DNA from: Tenacibaculum adriaticum
Lineage (GTDB): Bacteria; Bacteroidota; Bacteroidia; Flavobacteriales; Flavobacteriaceae
DNA: 64,000 bases
Reading direction: 5' to 3'
NCBI RefSeq assembly: GCF_008124875.1
Contig: NZ_VNIA01000001.1
Span: forward strand, 62,001-126,000
Part shown: positions 7,363 through 38,737 of the stretch, piece by piece
How the letters are laid out: each line of letters begins with the position of its first letter
Position numbering within the stretch: the stretch's first letter is position 1
Made by a program: the position numbers and the translations under genes
The notes under the pieces: generated by a model
Databases searched by the model: none
Told to the model about the DNA's origin: nothing
Seen by the model: the letters and a program-made list of their open reading frames with translations, nothing else

Positions 7363-7424
7363 ATTATTAAATCAAAAAAAAAGTTCGTTAATTTGTAACC
7401 AAATTAGTTCATTAATTTATTGAT

Positions 7425-7525
7425 GTTATCAAGAAAGGTGGAGGGATTAGACCCTTTGAAACCTTAGCAACCCTTTGTAAAAACAAAGAAGGTGCTAAAT
7501 TCTACTGCATTTGCAGAGAGATAAC
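7425..7525 (+). promoter_or_regulatory. SAM-I (S-box) riboswitch
   Basis: The aptamer matches the SAM-I consensus in order: P1 GTTATC (7425-7430) with GATAAC (7520-7525); GGTGGAGGGA and ACCCTTTGAAACC forming P2; the AGCAACC junction; a P3 hairpin CTTTGT/ACAAAG; GGTGCTAAATTCT; and a P4 hairpin CTGC/GCAG. It binds S-adenosylmethionine and sits 52 bp before a methionine synthase gene. Control appears translational: no strong T-run terminator follows, but a start-codon-masking hairpin does (7549-7577). Confidence 0.94.
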
Positions 7526-7548
7526 GGAAAGAATTTTACTTCTCTTTT

Positions 7549-7577: not shown

Positions 7578-8588
7578 ATGTCAAATATTTATTCAGAAAT
7601 ACAAAAACGAATTCTCGTACTCGATGGGGCTATGGGAACCATGCTTCAGCAATATAATTTTACTGAAGAAGATTTTCGCGGCAAGCGATTTAAAGAACAC
7701 CCCAGTTCTTTAAAAGGAAACAACGATTTATTATCAATTACACAGCCAGAAGCAGTAAAAGAAGTACATCGAAAATACTTCGCCGCAGGAGCAGATATTG
7801 TAGAAACCAATACTTTTTCTGGGACTACAATCGCTATGGCAGATTACCAAATGGAAGATTTGGTCTACGAACTCAATTATCAATCAGCTAAAATCGCCAA
7901 AGAAGTCGCAGATGAATTCACAATTAAAGAACCTCATAAACCGCGTTTTGTTGCAGGATCTATAGGGCCTACTAATCGAACTGCAAGCATGTCTCCAGAT
8001 GTAAATGACCCAGGCTATAGAGCTGTAACTTTTAACGAACTTCGTATAGCTTACAAACAACAAGCAGAAGCTTTACTAGATGGAGGTTCAGATATTTTAT
8101 TAGTAGAAACCGTGTTTGACACCTTAAATGCTAAAGCTGCTTTATTTGCTATAGAAGAAGTAAAAACGGAACGAAATATTGATGTTCCTGTAATGGTCTC
8201 TGGAACTATAACAGATGCCTCTGGAAGAACATTATCAGGACAAACAGCAGAAGCTTTTTTAATTTCAATTTCCCATATTCCGTTATTATCTGTCGGCTTT
8301 AACTGTGCTTTAGGAGCAAACTTAATGCAACCTCATTTAGAAGCTATTGCCTCTAAAACAAATTTCGCTATCTCAGCACATCCTAATGCTGGGTTACCTA
8401 ACGCCTTTGGTGAATATGATGAAACCCCTAATGAAATGTCTATACAAATAGAAGAATATTTAAAAAAAGGTCTTATCAATATTATAGGAGGTTGTTGCGG
8501 TACAACACCAAAACACATTACGGCCATTGCAGAATTAGCAACTAAATATGAACCCAGAAAAATAAAAGAAGCTGTATATGGAGAGTGA
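7578..8588 (+). CDS. metH: Methionine synthase, homocysteine-binding module (split MetH, part 1)
   Basis: The 336-residue protein corresponds to the first domain of cobalamin-dependent MetH: a TIM barrel that binds zinc and homocysteine. It starts [12 protein letters not shown], and the zinc cysteines are in GFNCALGA and in [12 protein letters not shown] near the C terminus. The other MetH domains follow as a separate gene overlapping or nearly overlapping its stop, so the enzyme is split in two chains, as is common in Bacteroidota. The riboswitch platform abuts its ATG, so its translation is probably repressed by SAM. Confidence 0.92.
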
Positions 8589-14826: not shown

Positions 14827-14925
14827 AACTAACTACTATTAAATTAGTTAAATTTAAATAAAATTCTATTATTAGAAGAATTAAACATATTATTAAATTG
14901 ACACGTAAAAATCAACTGCATAATA

Positions 14926-14956
14926 TTTGTTTATTTCAATTTAATGTTTAGATTTG
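14926..14956 (+). promoter_or_regulatory. Promoter of the aromatic amino-acid operon
   Basis: TTTG at 14926-14929, exactly 19 nt, then TAGATTTG at 14949-14956: a perfect match to the Bacteroidota promoter. The transcript would start near 14962, about 14 nt before the leader peptide and about 160 nt before pheA. Confidence 0.75.
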
Positions 14957-14975
14957 CTTTTCAACAATTATTACA

Positions 14976-15059
14976 ATGATGTTACAAAACGTTTGGCAAG
15001 GTTTTTATTTTTACTTTTATTTTTACAATAAGAGCGGAGACTTTGTATACGTTAGGTAA
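14976..15059 (+). CDS. Phe/Tyr-rich attenuator leader peptide
   Basis: A 27-codon open frame, ATG 14976 (or ATG 14979) to TAA 15057-15059, inside the transcribed leader. Residues 10-17 read FYFYFYFY (codons 15003-15026), and Phe23 and Tyr25 follow; in total 10 of 27 residues are Phe or Tyr. The genes downstream make exactly these two amino acids. The design matches the trp and phe leader peptides of enterobacteria: a ribosome slowed at these codons reports shortage of charged tRNA-Phe or tRNA-Tyr. The peptide itself probably has no function after release. Confidence 0.85.
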   Translation: MMLQNVWQGFYFYFYFYNKSGDFVYVR

Positions 15060-15113
15060 ATTAAAATACTAAACTATTAATATAAAGTCTCGATAATTCG
15101 AGGCTTTTTTTTT
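15037..15113 (+). terminator. Attenuator: antiterminator and terminator hairpins before pheA
   Basis: Terminator: AGTCTCGA (15086-15093), loop TAAT, TCGAGGCT (15098-15105), then a T-run to 15113. Antiterminator: GAGACTTTGTAT (15037-15048) pairs with ATATAAAGTCTC (15080-15091), 12 bp with one G-U, and uses the 5' arm of the terminator, so only one can form. The upstream arm lies within the end of the leader peptide frame, 10 nt after the Phe-Tyr codons, so ribosome position can decide the outcome. Confidence 0.85.
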
Positions 15114-15121
15114 ATATAATA

Positions 15122-15946
15122 ATGAAAATAATAGCCATTCAAGGAGTTGAAGGAAGTAATCACCATATTGTTGCTAATACTTTTTTCAAACACAACTTTA
15201 CTCTCGACAAATGCATGTCTTTCGATGCCTTGGTAGATAGTTTATTAACGCGTAAAAGTGAGATTGGTGTAATGGCTTTAGAAAACTCCATAGCTGGCTC
15301 TATCATTCCAAATTATGCTTTAATTGACTCTAATAACCTACATATTATAGGTGAACATTATTTAAAAATCAGTATGAACTTTATGGCTTTAAAAGGTCAA
15401 AAAATTGAAAACATTACTGAAGTGTATTCGCATCCAATGGCATTGCTGCAGTGTAAAAATTACTTTAAACAATATCCGCATATAAAATTGATTGAAGATA
15501 AAGATACAGCGGAGGTTGCTGAAAGAATTCAAAAAAATCAATTAAAAGGAATTGCAGCTTTAGCTAGTAAACAAGCTGCAGAAATTTTTGATTTAGAAAT
15601 TTTAGCCGCAGACATACAAACCATTCAAAATAACGCTACCCGCTTTGTAATTGTACAAACATCAAATTCAGTTATTTCTAAGGAAGAAATTAACAAAGCC
15701 TCTTTAAAATTTGAATTAGATCATAAACGGGGAAGTTTAGCAGCTGTTTTAAACGTTTTAAGTGATTGTAAATTAAATCTAACAAAAATTCAATCATTAC
15801 CAAGAATAGAAACTCCATGGAAATATTCGTTTTTTGTGGATGTTACTTTTGATGCATATGATAATTATGACAAGGCAAAATCGATTATGCAAATTATGGC
15901 AGAGGATTTTAAAATATTAGGAGAATATAAAAACGGACGTATATGA
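15122..15946 (+). CDS. pheA: Prephenate dehydratase
   Basis: Converts prephenate to phenylpyruvate. The 274-residue protein has the two-lobed dehydratase domain with the catalytic NNATRFVIVQ (TRF motif) near residue 180, and a C-terminal ACT domain. In the ACT domain the positions of the Phe-binding motifs GALV and ESRP of the E. coli enzyme read GSLA and QSLP, so feedback by Phe may differ. No chorismate mutase is fused; that activity sits in the last gene of the operon. Its stop overlaps the aminotransferase start by 4 bp. Confidence 0.93.
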   Translation: MKIIAIQGVEGSNHHIVANTFFKHNFTLDKCMSFDALVDSLLTRKSEIGVMALENSIAGSIIPNYALIDSNNLHIIGEHYLKISMNFMALKGQKIENITEVYSHPMALLQCKNYFKQYPHIKLIEDKDTAEVAERIQKNQLKGIAALASKQAAEIFDLEILAADIQTIQNNATRFVIVQTSNSVISKEEINKASLKFELDHKRGSLAAVLNVLSDCKLNLTKIQSLPRIETPWKYSFFVDVTFDAYDNYDKAKSIMQIMAEDFKILGEYKNGRI

Positions 15947-17085
15947 TACAATTTGCTAACCGATTACAAACCGTAGAGGAATACTATTTTTCAAGGAAAT
16001 TACGTGAGGTACGTCAGTTAATTTCTGAAGGAAAACCTATAATTAACATGGGAATTGGAAGTCCTGATTTACTTCCTCCTACTTCAGTAATTGAAGTTTT
16101 AAAAGGGAGCTTAACTGACACAAACACCCATAAATATCAAAGTTACCAAGGTTTACCCGAGTTCAGAGAAGCGGTTGCTAATTTTTACTCAGATAAATTT
16201 TCGGTTTCAGTAAATCCAGATTCAGAAATACTTCCTTTAATGGGAAGCAAAGAAGGAATTTTACATATTTCATTAACAATTTTAAATGAAGGAGATGAAG
16301 TCTTAATTCCAAATCCCGGATATCCAACATACACCTCTGTAACCAAATTAGTGGGAGCAACTCCTATTTTTTACGATTTAACTGAAAAAAATAATTATCA
16401 ACCTGATTTTTCAGCATTAGAAAAATTAGATCTTACAAAAGTAAAATTGATGTGGGTAAACTATCCACATATGCCTACAGGGGCAAAAGCTTCGAAAGAA
16501 ACTTTTGAGAAATTGATTACTTTCGGGAAGAAACATAATATTTTGATTGTAAACGACAATCCCTATAGTTTTGTTTTAAATGATAATCCACAAAGTATTT
16601 TAAGCGTAGATGGGGCAAAAGATATCGCCATCGAGTTGAATTCATTAAGTAAAACCTTTAACATGGCAGGTTGGCGTGTGGGAATACTCTTAGGAAATCA
16701 AGAATTCATCAACCAAATATTAAAAGTAAAAACACAAATGGATTCTGGTATGTTTTACGGAATTCAAAAAGGTGCGATTGAAGCCTTGAAAACTTCAGCA
16801 GAATGGATTAAAAATCAGAATGAAGTCTATCAAAAAAGAAGAGAACTCATCTGGAAACTTGCAGAAAAATTAGATTGTACCTTCAATAAAAATAATTCAG
16901 GAATGTTTGTTTGGGCAAAACTGCCCGAAGGAAAAGAAGCCGAAAGAGTTGTAGATGATTTGTTATATGGGAAAGATATTTTTATCGCTCCAGGAACAAT
17001 TTTCGGAACAAAAGGAGATGGGTATGTTCGATTTTCGTTATGTGTTTCTGAAGAAAAAATAACCGAAGCAATTAATAGGTTTTAA
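15943..17085 (+). CDS. Class I/II PLP aminotransferase, probably aromatic
   Basis: A 380-residue fold-type I aminotransferase with the PLP lysine in SLSKTFNMAGWRVG and the C-terminal arginine region GYVRFSLC. Position between prephenate dehydratase and prephenate dehydrogenase suggests it transaminates phenylpyruvate and hydroxyphenylpyruvate, or prephenate itself; the family also includes aspartate and LL-diaminopimelate aminotransferases, so substrate is inferred from context. The usual NYPNNPTG motif reads NYPHMPTG. It overlaps pheA by ATGA, pointing to translational coupling. Confidence 0.88.
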   Translation: MIQFANRLQTVEEYYFSRKLREVRQLISEGKPIINMGIGSPDLLPPTSVIEVLKGSLTDTNTHKYQSYQGLPEFREAVANFYSDKFSVSVNPDSEILPLMGSKEGILHISLTILNEGDEVLIPNPGYPTYTSVTKLVGATPIFYDLTEKNNYQPDFSALEKLDLTKVKLMWVNYPHMPTGAKASKETFEKLITFGKKHNILIVNDNPYSFVLNDNPQSILSVDGAKDIAIELNSLSKTFNMAGWRVGILLGNQEFINQILKVKTQMDSGMFYGIQKGAIEALKTSAEWIKNQNEVYQKRRELIWKLAEKLDCTFNKNNSGMFVWAKLPEGKEAERVVDDLLYGKDIFIAPGTIFGTKGDGYVRFSLCVSEEKITEAINRF

Positions 17086-17086
17086 G

Positions 17087-17935
17087 ATGAATGTATTTGT
17101 AATAGGTCTAGGATTAATTGGAGGAAGTTTATCTTTAGATATTCAAGAGCATTTTGTGGATGCGAAAATTTACGGAATTGATGTAAGTGAAAATCACTTA
17201 CAAGAAGCTTTAGAAATTGGAATCATTCATGAAAAAGCAACATTTTCTGATTTAGAAAAAGCAGATGTTGTAATTGTTTCTATTCCAGTTGATGTTCAGT
17301 TGCAGGTTATTCCTGAAGTTTTAGATATAATAAATGATGATTGTTTGTTGATTGATGTTGGTTCTACCAAAGAAATGATTTGCACTGTTGTGGCAAATCA
17401 TCCGAAGAGAAGAAACTTTTTAGCAGCGCATCCAATTGCTGGAACAGAATTTTCTGGACCCAAAGCAGCAATAAAAGGTTTGTTCAAAAACAAAACTAAT
17501 ATTATTTGCGAAGTAGAAAAAACAGCCTTTAAACTACAAGAAAAAGCATTAGAAATTTTTTCAACATTAGGAATGAGAATCCGTTATATGGATTCAAAAT
17601 CGCACGATAAACATATTGCGTATGTTTCTCATTTATCGCACATAAGTGCATTTATGTTGGGAAAAACTGTTATCGAAAAAGAAAAAAATGAACGTGATAT
17701 TTTTGATATGGCAGGAAGTGGATTTGCATCTACAGTTCGTTTGGCAAAAAGCTCACCAGCAATGTGGACGCCAATTTTTGAACAAAATAAAACAAATGTT
17801 ATAGAAACTTTAAATGAATATATTATCAATTTACAACAATTTAAAGAGCTGATGGAGAACGATAATTTTCCTGAAATTTATAACGAAATGAAAAACACAA
17901 ATTACATAAAGCAAATATTAAACGGCATAAAATAA
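17087..17935 (+). CDS. tyrA: Prephenate dehydrogenase
   Basis: NAD(P)-dependent oxidative decarboxylation of prephenate to hydroxyphenylpyruvate for tyrosine. The 282 residues begin with the dinucleotide motif GLGLIGGSL, followed by AAHPIAGTEFSGP, which holds the catalytic His of the family, and HIAYVSHLSHISAF. There is no fused chorismate mutase or ACT domain. It starts one base after the aminotransferase stop. Confidence 0.93.
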   Translation: MNVFVIGLGLIGGSLSLDIQEHFVDAKIYGIDVSENHLQEALEIGIIHEKATFSDLEKADVVIVSIPVDVQLQVIPEVLDIINDDCLLIDVGSTKEMICTVVANHPKRRNFLAAHPIAGTEFSGPKAAIKGLFKNKTNIICEVEKTAFKLQEKALEIFSTLGMRIRYMDSKSHDKHIAYVSHLSHISAFMLGKTVIEKEKNERDIFDMAGSGFASTVRLAKSSPAMWTPIFEQNKTNVIETLNEYIINLQQFKELMENDNFPEIYNEMKNTNYIKQILNGIK

Positions 17936-17955: not shown

Positions 17956-19038
17956 ATGGAGAATACAAAAGAATTAAGAACATGGTTGGATGATATGAAA
18001 TTAAATCATCCACTAGTAATAGCAGGGCCTTGTAGTGCAGAAACCGAAGAACAGGTTTTAAAAATTGCACACGAATTAAAAGATTCTGATGTAAATTATT
18101 TCCGTGCAGGAATTTGGAAACCAAGAACGCGTCCAGGTATGTTTGAAGGTGTTGGAGCAATCGGTTTAAAGTGGTTGCAAAAAGTGAAATCAGAAACAGG
18201 AATGAAAACCTGTACAGAAGTTGCCAATGCAGCACATGTAAAATTAGCGTTAGAATATGATGTGGATTTACTTTGGATTGGAGCAAGATCTACAGTTTCG
18301 CCATTTATTATGCAAGAAATTGCAGATGCTTTACAAGGAACAGATAAAATTGTATTGGTTAAAAATCCAGTAAATCCAGATTTGGCTCTTTGGTTAGGTG
18401 GAATTGAGCGTTTATACAAAGCAGATATTAAAAATTTGGGCGCAATTCACAGAGGGTTTTCAACATACGAAAAAACGAAATATAGAAATATCCCAGAATG
18501 GCAATTGGCAATTGAGTTTCAAAACAAATTTCCAGATTTACCATTAATTAACGATCCTTCTCATATCACTGGAAATAGAGATATGATTTTTGAAGTTTCT
18601 CAAACTGCTTTAGATTTAAATTTTGATGGATTGATGATTGAAACACATTTTGATCCAGACAACGCATGGAGCGATGCTGCTCAACAAGTTACTCCAACTA
18701 CGTTAAAGCAGATTATGCAAGATTTAAAAATTAGAAAAGAGACAAACACAGAGGCAGATTATAAAAATTCTTTAGATAATTTACGTGCTCAAATTAATGT
18801 TGTTGACAACCAATTAATAGAAATGTTGGGTAAAAGAATGAAGGTTGCCGATGAGATTGGGAAACTAAAAAAACAGAAAAATGTTGCTGTTTTACAAACA
18901 AAACGTTGGAACGAAATTCTTGGAAACATGATTTTAGAAGGTGAAAGTAAAGGTTTAAGTGAAGAATTCATCTTAAAAATGTTTAAAGCAATTCATCAAG
19001 AAAGTATCAACCATCAAGAAAAAATAATTAATTCATAA
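17956..19038 (+). CDS. Bifunctional DAHP synthase / chorismate mutase (AroQ)
   Basis: Carries the first step of the shikimate pathway and the chorismate to prephenate step in one chain. Residues about 1-260 form a type I-beta DAHP synthase (VIAGPCSAE, FRAGIWKPRTRPG, LINDPSHITGNRD), and residues about 270-360 an AroQ chorismate mutase (DNLRAQINVVDNQLIEMLGKR split over its first helix). The order, synthase first and mutase last, is that characterised in Prevotella nigrescens, where prephenate inhibits the synthase. With it, the operon holds every step specific to Phe and Tyr after chorismate, plus entry control. Confidence 0.94.
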   Translation: MENTKELRTWLDDMKLNHPLVIAGPCSAETEEQVLKIAHELKDSDVNYFRAGIWKPRTRPGMFEGVGAIGLKWLQKVKSETGMKTCTEVANAAHVKLALEYDVDLLWIGARSTVSPFIMQEIADALQGTDKIVLVKNPVNPDLALWLGGIERLYKADIKNLGAIHRGFSTYEKTKYRNIPEWQLAIEFQNKFPDLPLINDPSHITGNRDMIFEVSQTALDLNFDGLMIETHFDPDNAWSDAAQQVTPTTLKQIMQDLKIRKETNTEADYKNSLDNLRAQINVVDNQLIEMLGKRMKVADEIGKLKKQKNVAVLQTKRWNEILGNMILEGESKGLSEEFILKMFKAIHQESINHQEKIINS

Positions 19039-38406: not shown

Positions 38407-38436
38407 TATATTTGCAACTTCAATGAAAAATCATTG
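38407..38436 (+). promoter_or_regulatory. rpsO -7 box and 5'-terminal hairpin
   Basis: TATATTTG (38407-38414) fits the promoter box and predicts a start near 38421. At that point the RNA would begin with CAATGA, AAAA, TCATTG (38421-38436), a perfect 6-bp hairpin, 31 bases before the rpsO ATG. It may stabilise the 5' end or take part in feedback by S15. Confidence 0.5.
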
Positions 38437-38467
38437 TATACATTAAAATCATTTAAACAATATTGGT

Positions 38468-38737
38468 ATGTATTTAACAAAAGAAGTTAAAGGAGAGATT
38501 TTCGCAAAACATGGTAAAGGAGCAAACGATACTGGTAGTGCAGAGGGTCAAATCGCGTTATTTACGCACAGAATTAACCACTTAACAGAACACTTAAAGA
38601 AAAATCGTAAAGATTATAACACAGAGCGTTCGTTAGTAATGATGGTTGGTAAGCGTAGAAGTCTTTTAGACTATTTAAAGAAAAAAGAAATCAACAGATA
38701 TCGTGCGATTATCAAAGAATTAGGAATTAGAAAATAA
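38468..38737 (+). CDS. rpsO: 30S ribosomal protein S15
   Basis: The 89-residue protein is of standard length and has the S15 signature: GSAEGQIALFTHRINHLTEHLK and RSLVMMVGKRRSLLDYL around its rRNA-binding helices. It binds the 16S central domain early in 30S assembly. It is followed by a terminator and then pnp, the same gene order as in many bacteria. Confidence 0.98.
   Translation: MYLTKEVKGEIFAKHGKGANDTGSAEGQIALFTHRINHLTEHLKKNRKDYNTERSLVMMVGKRRSLLDYLKKKEINRYRAIIKELGIRK

Follow-up and report, generated by a model that had tools for sequence, protein, structure and literature searches.

A conserved candidate attenuator with mixed aromatic codons in the leader of the pheA operon of Flavobacteriaceae

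Introduction

The window, a 64,000-nucleotide stretch of DNA from Tenacibaculum adriaticum, carries four genes of aromatic amino-acid synthesis that are arranged head to tail: pheA, an aminotransferase gene, tyrA and a DAHP synthase fusion. They are preceded by a short open reading frame in which Phe and Tyr codons alternate. The question raised by this locus is whether the short frame is the sensor of a transcription attenuator and, if it is, which amino acids are sensed. In the enterobacterial Phe leader, a peptide rich in Phe codons is combined with an antiterminator/terminator pair. One leader can also read several amino acids of a branched pathway, as thrL and ilvL of E. coli do; these differ from the leader described here in reading Thr/Ile and Ile/Val/Leu, not Phe/Tyr/Trp, and belong to Proteobacteria.

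Here, it is concluded that the locus very probably attenuates transcription by means of a leader peptide: a ribosome that stalls at Phe and Tyr codons, and possibly at Trp codons, would likely switch on the operon of pheA, the aminotransferase gene, tyrA and DAHP synthase. This reading is drawn from the anatomy of the locus and its folds, a survey of the family, covariation, the geometry of codons and arms, and the way in which codon identity tracks the product of the downstream genes. Attenuator control had been proposed for this operon in an earlier note on the same DNA, and the comparison of sequences supports it, through homologous leaders and covariation in two helices.

Results

Anatomy of the leader and the operon

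The features of the locus, all on the forward (+) strand of the window, are as follows.

14926..14956, +, predicted Bacteroidetes-type promoter (TTTG at 14926-14929, a spacer of 19 nt, and TAGATTTG at 14949-14956)
14976..15059, +, leader ORF MMLQNVWQGFYFYFYFYNKSGDFVYVR of 27 codons (ATG at 14976, or 14979; stop codon TAA at 15057-15059)
14994..14996, +, Trp codon (codon 7), a possible third sensing codon; W is frequent in family leaders
14996..15006, +, possible arm 1 of a protector hairpin, partner 15036-15046 (MFE fold of the window locus; the swap test gives no support)
15003..15026, +, putative sensing run FYFYFYFY, codons 10-17 (TTT TAT TTT TAC, twice in succession)
15037..15048, +, arm 2, the antiterminator 5' arm, GAGACTTTGTAT (fold; covariation with arm 3)
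15080..15091, +, arm 3, the antiterminator 3' arm, ATATAAAGTCTC, which overlaps the terminator 5' arm
15084..15093, +, terminator 5' arm (10 bp with 15098-15107; loop TAAT)
15098..15113, +, terminator 3' arm (15098-15107) and T-run (15105-15113), from fold and covariation
15122..15946, +, pheA, prephenate dehydratase (PF00800; ACT domain under the Pfam cut-off)
15943..17085, +, class I/II aminotransferase, likely the aromatic transaminase of the pathway (PF00155; substrate judged from context)
17087..17935, +, tyrA, prephenate dehydrogenase (NF006307, above cut-off)
17956..19038, +, DAHP synthase - chorismate mutase fusion (PF00793 and PF01817)

The promoter, the 27-codon leader with its FYFYFYFY run, the 12-bp antiterminator and the overlapping terminator are thus all present as the earlier note had described them. 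The promoter elements, which are named after the Bacteroidetes-type consensus, end 19 nt before the leader ATG at 14976. Across all six frames of the window, there is a single run of eight F/Y codons; 40 first-order Markov sequences of 64 kb contain none. Arm 2 starts 13 nt past the first nucleotide of the last Tyr codon and pairs with arm 3 (15037-15048 with 15080-15091) over 12 bp, one of which is G-U. The antiterminator segment folds at -16.4 kcal/mol (z -4.2; 1 of 200 shuffles equally good) and the terminator at -12.8 kcal/mol (z -5.7; 0 of 200). When 14966-15113 is folded free of ribosomes (-32.2 kcal/mol), 15036-15046 pairs with 14996-15006 and the terminator is formed too. In this model, the pairing would correspond to the 'protector' (1:2) hairpin known from classic attenuators, and the folded state, which the earlier note had not described, would be the default-off state.

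These parts suggest how the leader could work. When Phe- or Tyr-tRNA is scarce, the ribosome would stop in the run. Arm 2 (15037-15048) would then be open to pairing with arm 3, which would prevent the terminator. When supply is ample, the ribosome would reach the stop codon at 15057 and cover arm 2, so that transcription would end near 15113. Without translation of the leader, arm 2 would be sequestered in the 1:2 hairpin and the terminator would be formed. Three features of such attenuators are found here: a short leader ORF with clustered product codons, a mutually exclusive antiterminator and intrinsic terminator, and ribosome positions that fit, these by geometry only.

The order pheA>aminotransferase>tyrA>aroF-CM is kept in 25/25 loci (L001-L025). 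For the aminotransferase (15943..17085), the best NCBIfam names, which are below cut-off, are LL-diaminopimelate aminotransferase.

Conservation in the family and beyond

A PheA match is present in 136 of 149 family genomes, representing 135 of 148 genera. Upstream DNA was taken from all 136, and one second locus from the same genus was dropped to give 135 one-per-genus loci. An aromatic leader and a terminator are found in 130 of these and a contiguous antiterminator arm as well in 129, so that homologous leaders are aromatic-rich and have all parts in nearly every genus, as the earlier note's proposal required; one locus (L137) has leader and terminator only. The remaining five loci have no leader within 400 nt upstream of pheA. 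A covariance model, R1, was built from 42 of these pheA leader loci, and in three of the five leaderless loci's genomes (G050, G108 and G150) it gives a strong match further upstream; inspection of the upstream DNA of G050 and G150 showed the leader in both. In G150, a 197-aa ORF without a Pfam match (L325:435-1028) lies between the FY leader and pheA, and presumably resembles a REP-associated transposase. For L167, the contig begins only 385 nt upstream of the pheA match, and no leader was found in the stretch examined for L162.

R1 matches 131/136 PheA-positive genomes, including 89/94 of those outside the training set (cross-count by hand), and 3/13 family genomes without a PheA match, where it finds an FY leader (G138), a Trp leader (G068) and a Tyr leader (G077). 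In the window's own genome, the leader is the single strong match (79 bits). A paralogue there was considered and rejected, as the next match (42 bits, E 0.003) is without an aromatic leader. Ten second or weak matches (L324, L327-L335) were inspected and comprised one Tyr leader (L324) and two leader-like sequences before an MFS gene (L330 and L335); the others have no aromatic leader. The ORFs of the latter two, from two genera, end in RCFCI (L330:306-377) and ICRC (L335:282-344) and are followed by terminators and a transporter gene, which in L330 is MFS by Pfam. They are possible attenuators.

A relaxed -7 element, TAnnTT[TA]G, precedes the leader ATG by no more than 70 nt in 121/129 loci vs 11% in shuffles, at a median distance of 17 nt; this form was chosen after the strict TAnnTTTG had been counted in just 21/129. 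A transcription start downstream of 15037 would have spoken against the proposal, and the predicted start is upstream. In 58 of 60 sampled loci, the terminator is formed in the fold of the whole leader.

Outside the family, 23/24 same-class loci picked by hand reach 6 or more aromatic residues per 9 codons, vs 3/30 other loci, and in L207, of the same class and not among the 24, the leader was not found. The leader is not universal in the class, as 15/26 loci of a class sample (genomes partly shared with the 24) show the same aromatic content. Bacteroidia are only partly covered by this count, with a PheA match in just 41/149 class genomes. In addition, three loci from another class of the phylum (L232-L234) have a PheA 40-43% identical to that of the window together with an aromatic leader; here, leader and operon were possibly transferred together.

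Leader codons

Both F and Y are present in every leader (129/129), with means of 5.3 Phe and 3.5 Tyr codons per leader and with TTT/TTC and TAT/TAC all in use. The order and length of the run are variable, for example FYFYFYFY, FYFYFFF, FFFYFYFF, YYNWFYFFF and NFWFFYF. The earlier note had drawn attention to the strict alternation of Phe and Tyr and named its conservation in relatives as a check. Strict alternation is not conserved: FYFYFYFY occurs in 1/129 family leaders and in 3/23 same-genus loci, window included, and alternation was dropped as a conserved signal. It is the aromatic run itself that is conserved.

A Trp codon is present in 91/129 leaders vs 26 expected (maximum 42) in nucleotide-shuffled leaders, a 3.5-fold excess. 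Counting back from the end of the run, most of these Trp codons are 9-10 or 4-5 codons away. There are at most two Trp codons per FY leader, and WW occurs in 0/129 FY leaders. Of the earlier idea of a leader that reads two amino acids, the part concerning F and Y therefore stands in every leader, and what it lacked is Trp as a frequent third component. The attenuator probably reads all three aromatic amino acids.

Helix covariation

Compensatory changes, which the earlier note had predicted for both helices, were found in terminator and antiterminator. Using 99 diverse sequences, 93.7% of terminator cells have standard pairs, 8/10 pairs are changed on both sides, and there are 78 doubly changed cells vs 19.6 in shuffles. 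The antiterminator has 68 doubly changed cells vs 31.8 shuffled. Of its cells, 68.8% are paired, probably an underestimate, as the MAFFT alignment of arm 2 is one column off in one clade; column pair 53:124 pairs in 98/99 rows with three pair types. Two of five measures for the antiterminator are not clearly above shuffles, namely the number of pairs with double changes (101/500 as high) and the number of pair types (51/500). The shuffles leave relatedness among loci in place.

Because of the misaligned clade, alignment-free tests were preferred. Swapping arms between genera, without column alignment, lowers mean antiterminator pairing in 1000/1000 permutations; the segment used in this test, which was paired against the terminator 5' arm, had been chosen from the position of the codons and not for its pairing. 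Watson-Crick-perfect antiterminator cores are present in 40/99 sequences, compared to a shuffled mean of 14.8 and a maximum of 28 in 5000. The same swap test was left unused for the terminator, where it is circular, the arms having been picked by pairing.

The 1:2 protector was also considered as a conserved helix. Its first 8 arm-2 nucleotides are paired upstream at 6 or more positions in 40/60 sampled loci and the swap test is negative (own pairing 11.51 vs 11.29; 122/1000 permutations as high), so that conservation of this helix is unsupported.

Codon-to-arm geometry

Counted from the first base of the last aromatic codon, arm 2 starts at a distance of 10-15 nt in 120/129 leaders (median 14). 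This spacing is somewhat biased, because arm 2 was sought only downstream of that codon. The distance from run to arm 2 is nearly fixed although codon number and order vary, and by this geometry arm 2 would start about where a stalled ribosome ends. Ribosome positions were modeled with an E. coli-like footprint, an assumption on which the following counts depend. With a codon of the run in the A site, at least 5/6 nucleotides of the arm-2 core are free at 1066/1075 aromatic codons; with the ribosome at the stop codon, at least 4/6 are covered in 113/129 leaders.

Natural codon swaps

Prephenate dehydrogenase (PF02153) was found in none of the 13 family genomes that have no PheA match, vs 7/8 PheA-positive controls above cut-off; the eighth control, G091, combines PheA and an FY leader with just a weak TyrA match, of a kind also seen as a second match elsewhere. 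A strong DAHP synthase-chorismate mutase match is present in 12 of the 13, and its upstream DNA was readable in 11. The one excluded, G138, has the DAHP synthase starting at a contig end; its FY leader precedes a pheA-like start that runs off the contig, so G138 may have pheA.

A leader and terminator stand before DAHP synthase in 7/11, with WW in six (L341, L343-L346, L350) and a single W in L342, and no leader was found within 420 nt of DAHP synthase in 4/11 (L347, L348, L349, L351). Full-length TrpE is present in all seven Trp-leader genomes and in G077 (L348), and TrpE matches are only partial in G121, G076 and G086 (E 5e-81 or weaker). A Trp leader therefore precedes DAHP synthase in 7/8 genomes with trpE vs 0/3 without (one-tailed Fisher 0.024, relatedness ignored). 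The exception is G077, which has trpE and DAHP synthase and no leader before the latter. In the TrpE tree, which has long branches, six Trp-leader genomes form a clade (98/96) and G068 groups with the window genome (100/99). This tree forces two origins of Trp leaders; the DAHP synthase tree does not. Antiterminators of the Trp leaders are weaker, with arms of 6-7 bp near the stop codon in 4/7 (L342, L344, L346, L350) and of 4 bp in L343; in L341 and L345, the best antiterminator match is implausible. L350 and L323 both come from G068; there, and in L341-L346, the Trp leaders stand before stand-alone DAHP synthase-chorismate mutase genes.

Upstream of trpE itself, all 17 loci with full-length trpE, that of the window genome (L396, G000:C3) included, have a small ORF with WWW (15 loci) or WW (2 loci), and a terminator-like hairpin follows the run in 13/17. 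Tyr codons alone are seen before the short-type biopterin-dependent aromatic hydroxylase (Biopterin_H), which would make Tyr from Phe. A leader with terminator was found in 2/5 of these loci, and none of this kind in the other 3/5:

L324:397-459 (G077), YYYY leader before the hydroxylase, with terminator
L355 (G184), YYYYY leader before the hydroxylase, GTG start, with terminator

The identity of the leader codons follows the downstream product, and of all the results this speaks most strongly for the codons as the sensor. The Trp codons in relatives that are without pheA and tyrA likely reflect evolution retuning this sensor, as judged from the genes and leaders compared.

Discussion

Rival readings

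Leader peptides need not report on codon supply. In TnaC, the model for nascent-peptide arrest, free amino acid is the ligand. The leader could likewise be an arrest sensor, where the aromatic peptide in the exit tunnel plus a free amino acid ligand stalls the ribosome and codon supply goes unread. The peptide is indeed aromatic and partly conserved, and many leaders have a single conserved Trp. Against this, the order and length of the run vary, and WW or YYYY takes its place before other genes, as expected if it is codon identity and not a peptide motif that matters; the arrest reading is thus highly improbable. A similarly slender chance is given to a terminator that is constitutive and partial, or under other control (protein, translation coupling or Rho), with the leader ORF incidental. 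Although the window leader start has no obvious Shine-Dalgarno sequence, a lack that we take to be typical of Bacteroidetes, an incidental ORF would give no reason for the antiterminator covariation, the codon-to-arm spacing or the product-matched codons.

A more serious contender lies within the attenuator reading itself: only Phe, or only Phe and Tyr, may be sensed, with Trp kept for RNA pairing or by descent. Phe codons outnumber Tyr codons and there are at most two Trp per leader, which fits this variant. It is set against the presence of F and Y in all 129 leaders, the 3.5-fold Trp excess over shuffles, and the occurrence of Trp-codon leaders where pheA/tyrA matches are missing. Sensing restricted in this way is possible, and we regard it as less likely than a three-amino-acid input.

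The attenuator reading can be extended across relatives. On balance, we favour a modular attenuator of Bacteroidia, whose codon cassette is retuned to the shikimate branches that a genome retains. A Phe/Tyr/Trp mix would serve the pheA-tyrA-DAHP synthase operon, one leader reading all three end products; after loss of pheA and tyrA, Trp-Trp would precede DAHP synthase; the leader would be absent once trpE is gone too; and a Tyr-only version would precede phenylalanine hydroxylase.

Relation to known leaders

At the window locus and at the leaders of 15 relatives, Rfam 15 gives no family at threshold. No T-box or riboswitch was found at the locus at the gathering threshold, nor among the 24 matches at E<=10. 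One of the closest known systems is RF01859 Phe_leader, which we take to be the enterobacterial pheA/pheST leader. It matches the terminator half only (15062-15113), with 26.9 bits against a gathering threshold of 55. Both have a Phe-codon leader peptide and an antiterminator/terminator; in contrast to Phe_leader, Tyr and often Trp codons are mixed into the leaders described here, and the operon adds tyrA and DAHP synthase.

Bacteroid-trp, RF01692 (Weinberg et al. 2010, PMC2864571), is listed in Rfam as a Bacteroidete tryptophan peptide leader. This family matches upstream of trpE in L384 (52.1 bits; gathering 49), one of two trpE loci scanned, and leader peptides in this phylum are therefore not new. 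RF01692 differs from the window leader in having a Trp run and belonging to the trp operon, and is not among the matches to 14900-15130 at E<=10.

The earlier note named no described flavobacterial case; a flavobacterial pheA 5' element has, in fact, been flagged before. The passages on 5' elements in a 2021 transcriptome study of Flavobacterium psychrophilum (PMC9723704) describe structured elements of pheA and hisG, the former shared by other genera and without Rfam matches, and mention 'strong clues' for leader-peptide attenuation of amino-acid operons. By gene and family, that pheA element is very probably the same as the one in the window; those passages name no codons, sensed amino acids or antiterminator. 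Among the listed titles and abstract openings of open-licence papers, none beyond PMC9723704 points to Phe/Tyr leaders or their retuning in Bacteroidota.

What is described here is very probably an attenuator of a known kind; it is conserved, has no catalogued family and probably takes three amino acids as its input. The leader family is near-universal in one family of Bacteroidota, extends to other families of the class, and precedes the entry enzyme together with two branches of the pathway. As codon content follows gene content, changes of attenuator input become testable with natural FYW, WW and YYYY versions; if the retuning reading is true, gene loss has provided natural codon-swap experiments. 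The attenuator also predicts transcription-translation coupling in Flavobacteriaceae, and the alignment is available for a new Rfam family.

Two further RNA elements were seen in the window. A SAM riboswitch (RF00162, 85.7 bits) at 7423-7527 lies upstream of an ORF at 7578 that is presumably methionine synthase-like, and an S15-Flavobacteria ribosomal protein leader (RF03161) is found at 38407-38470.
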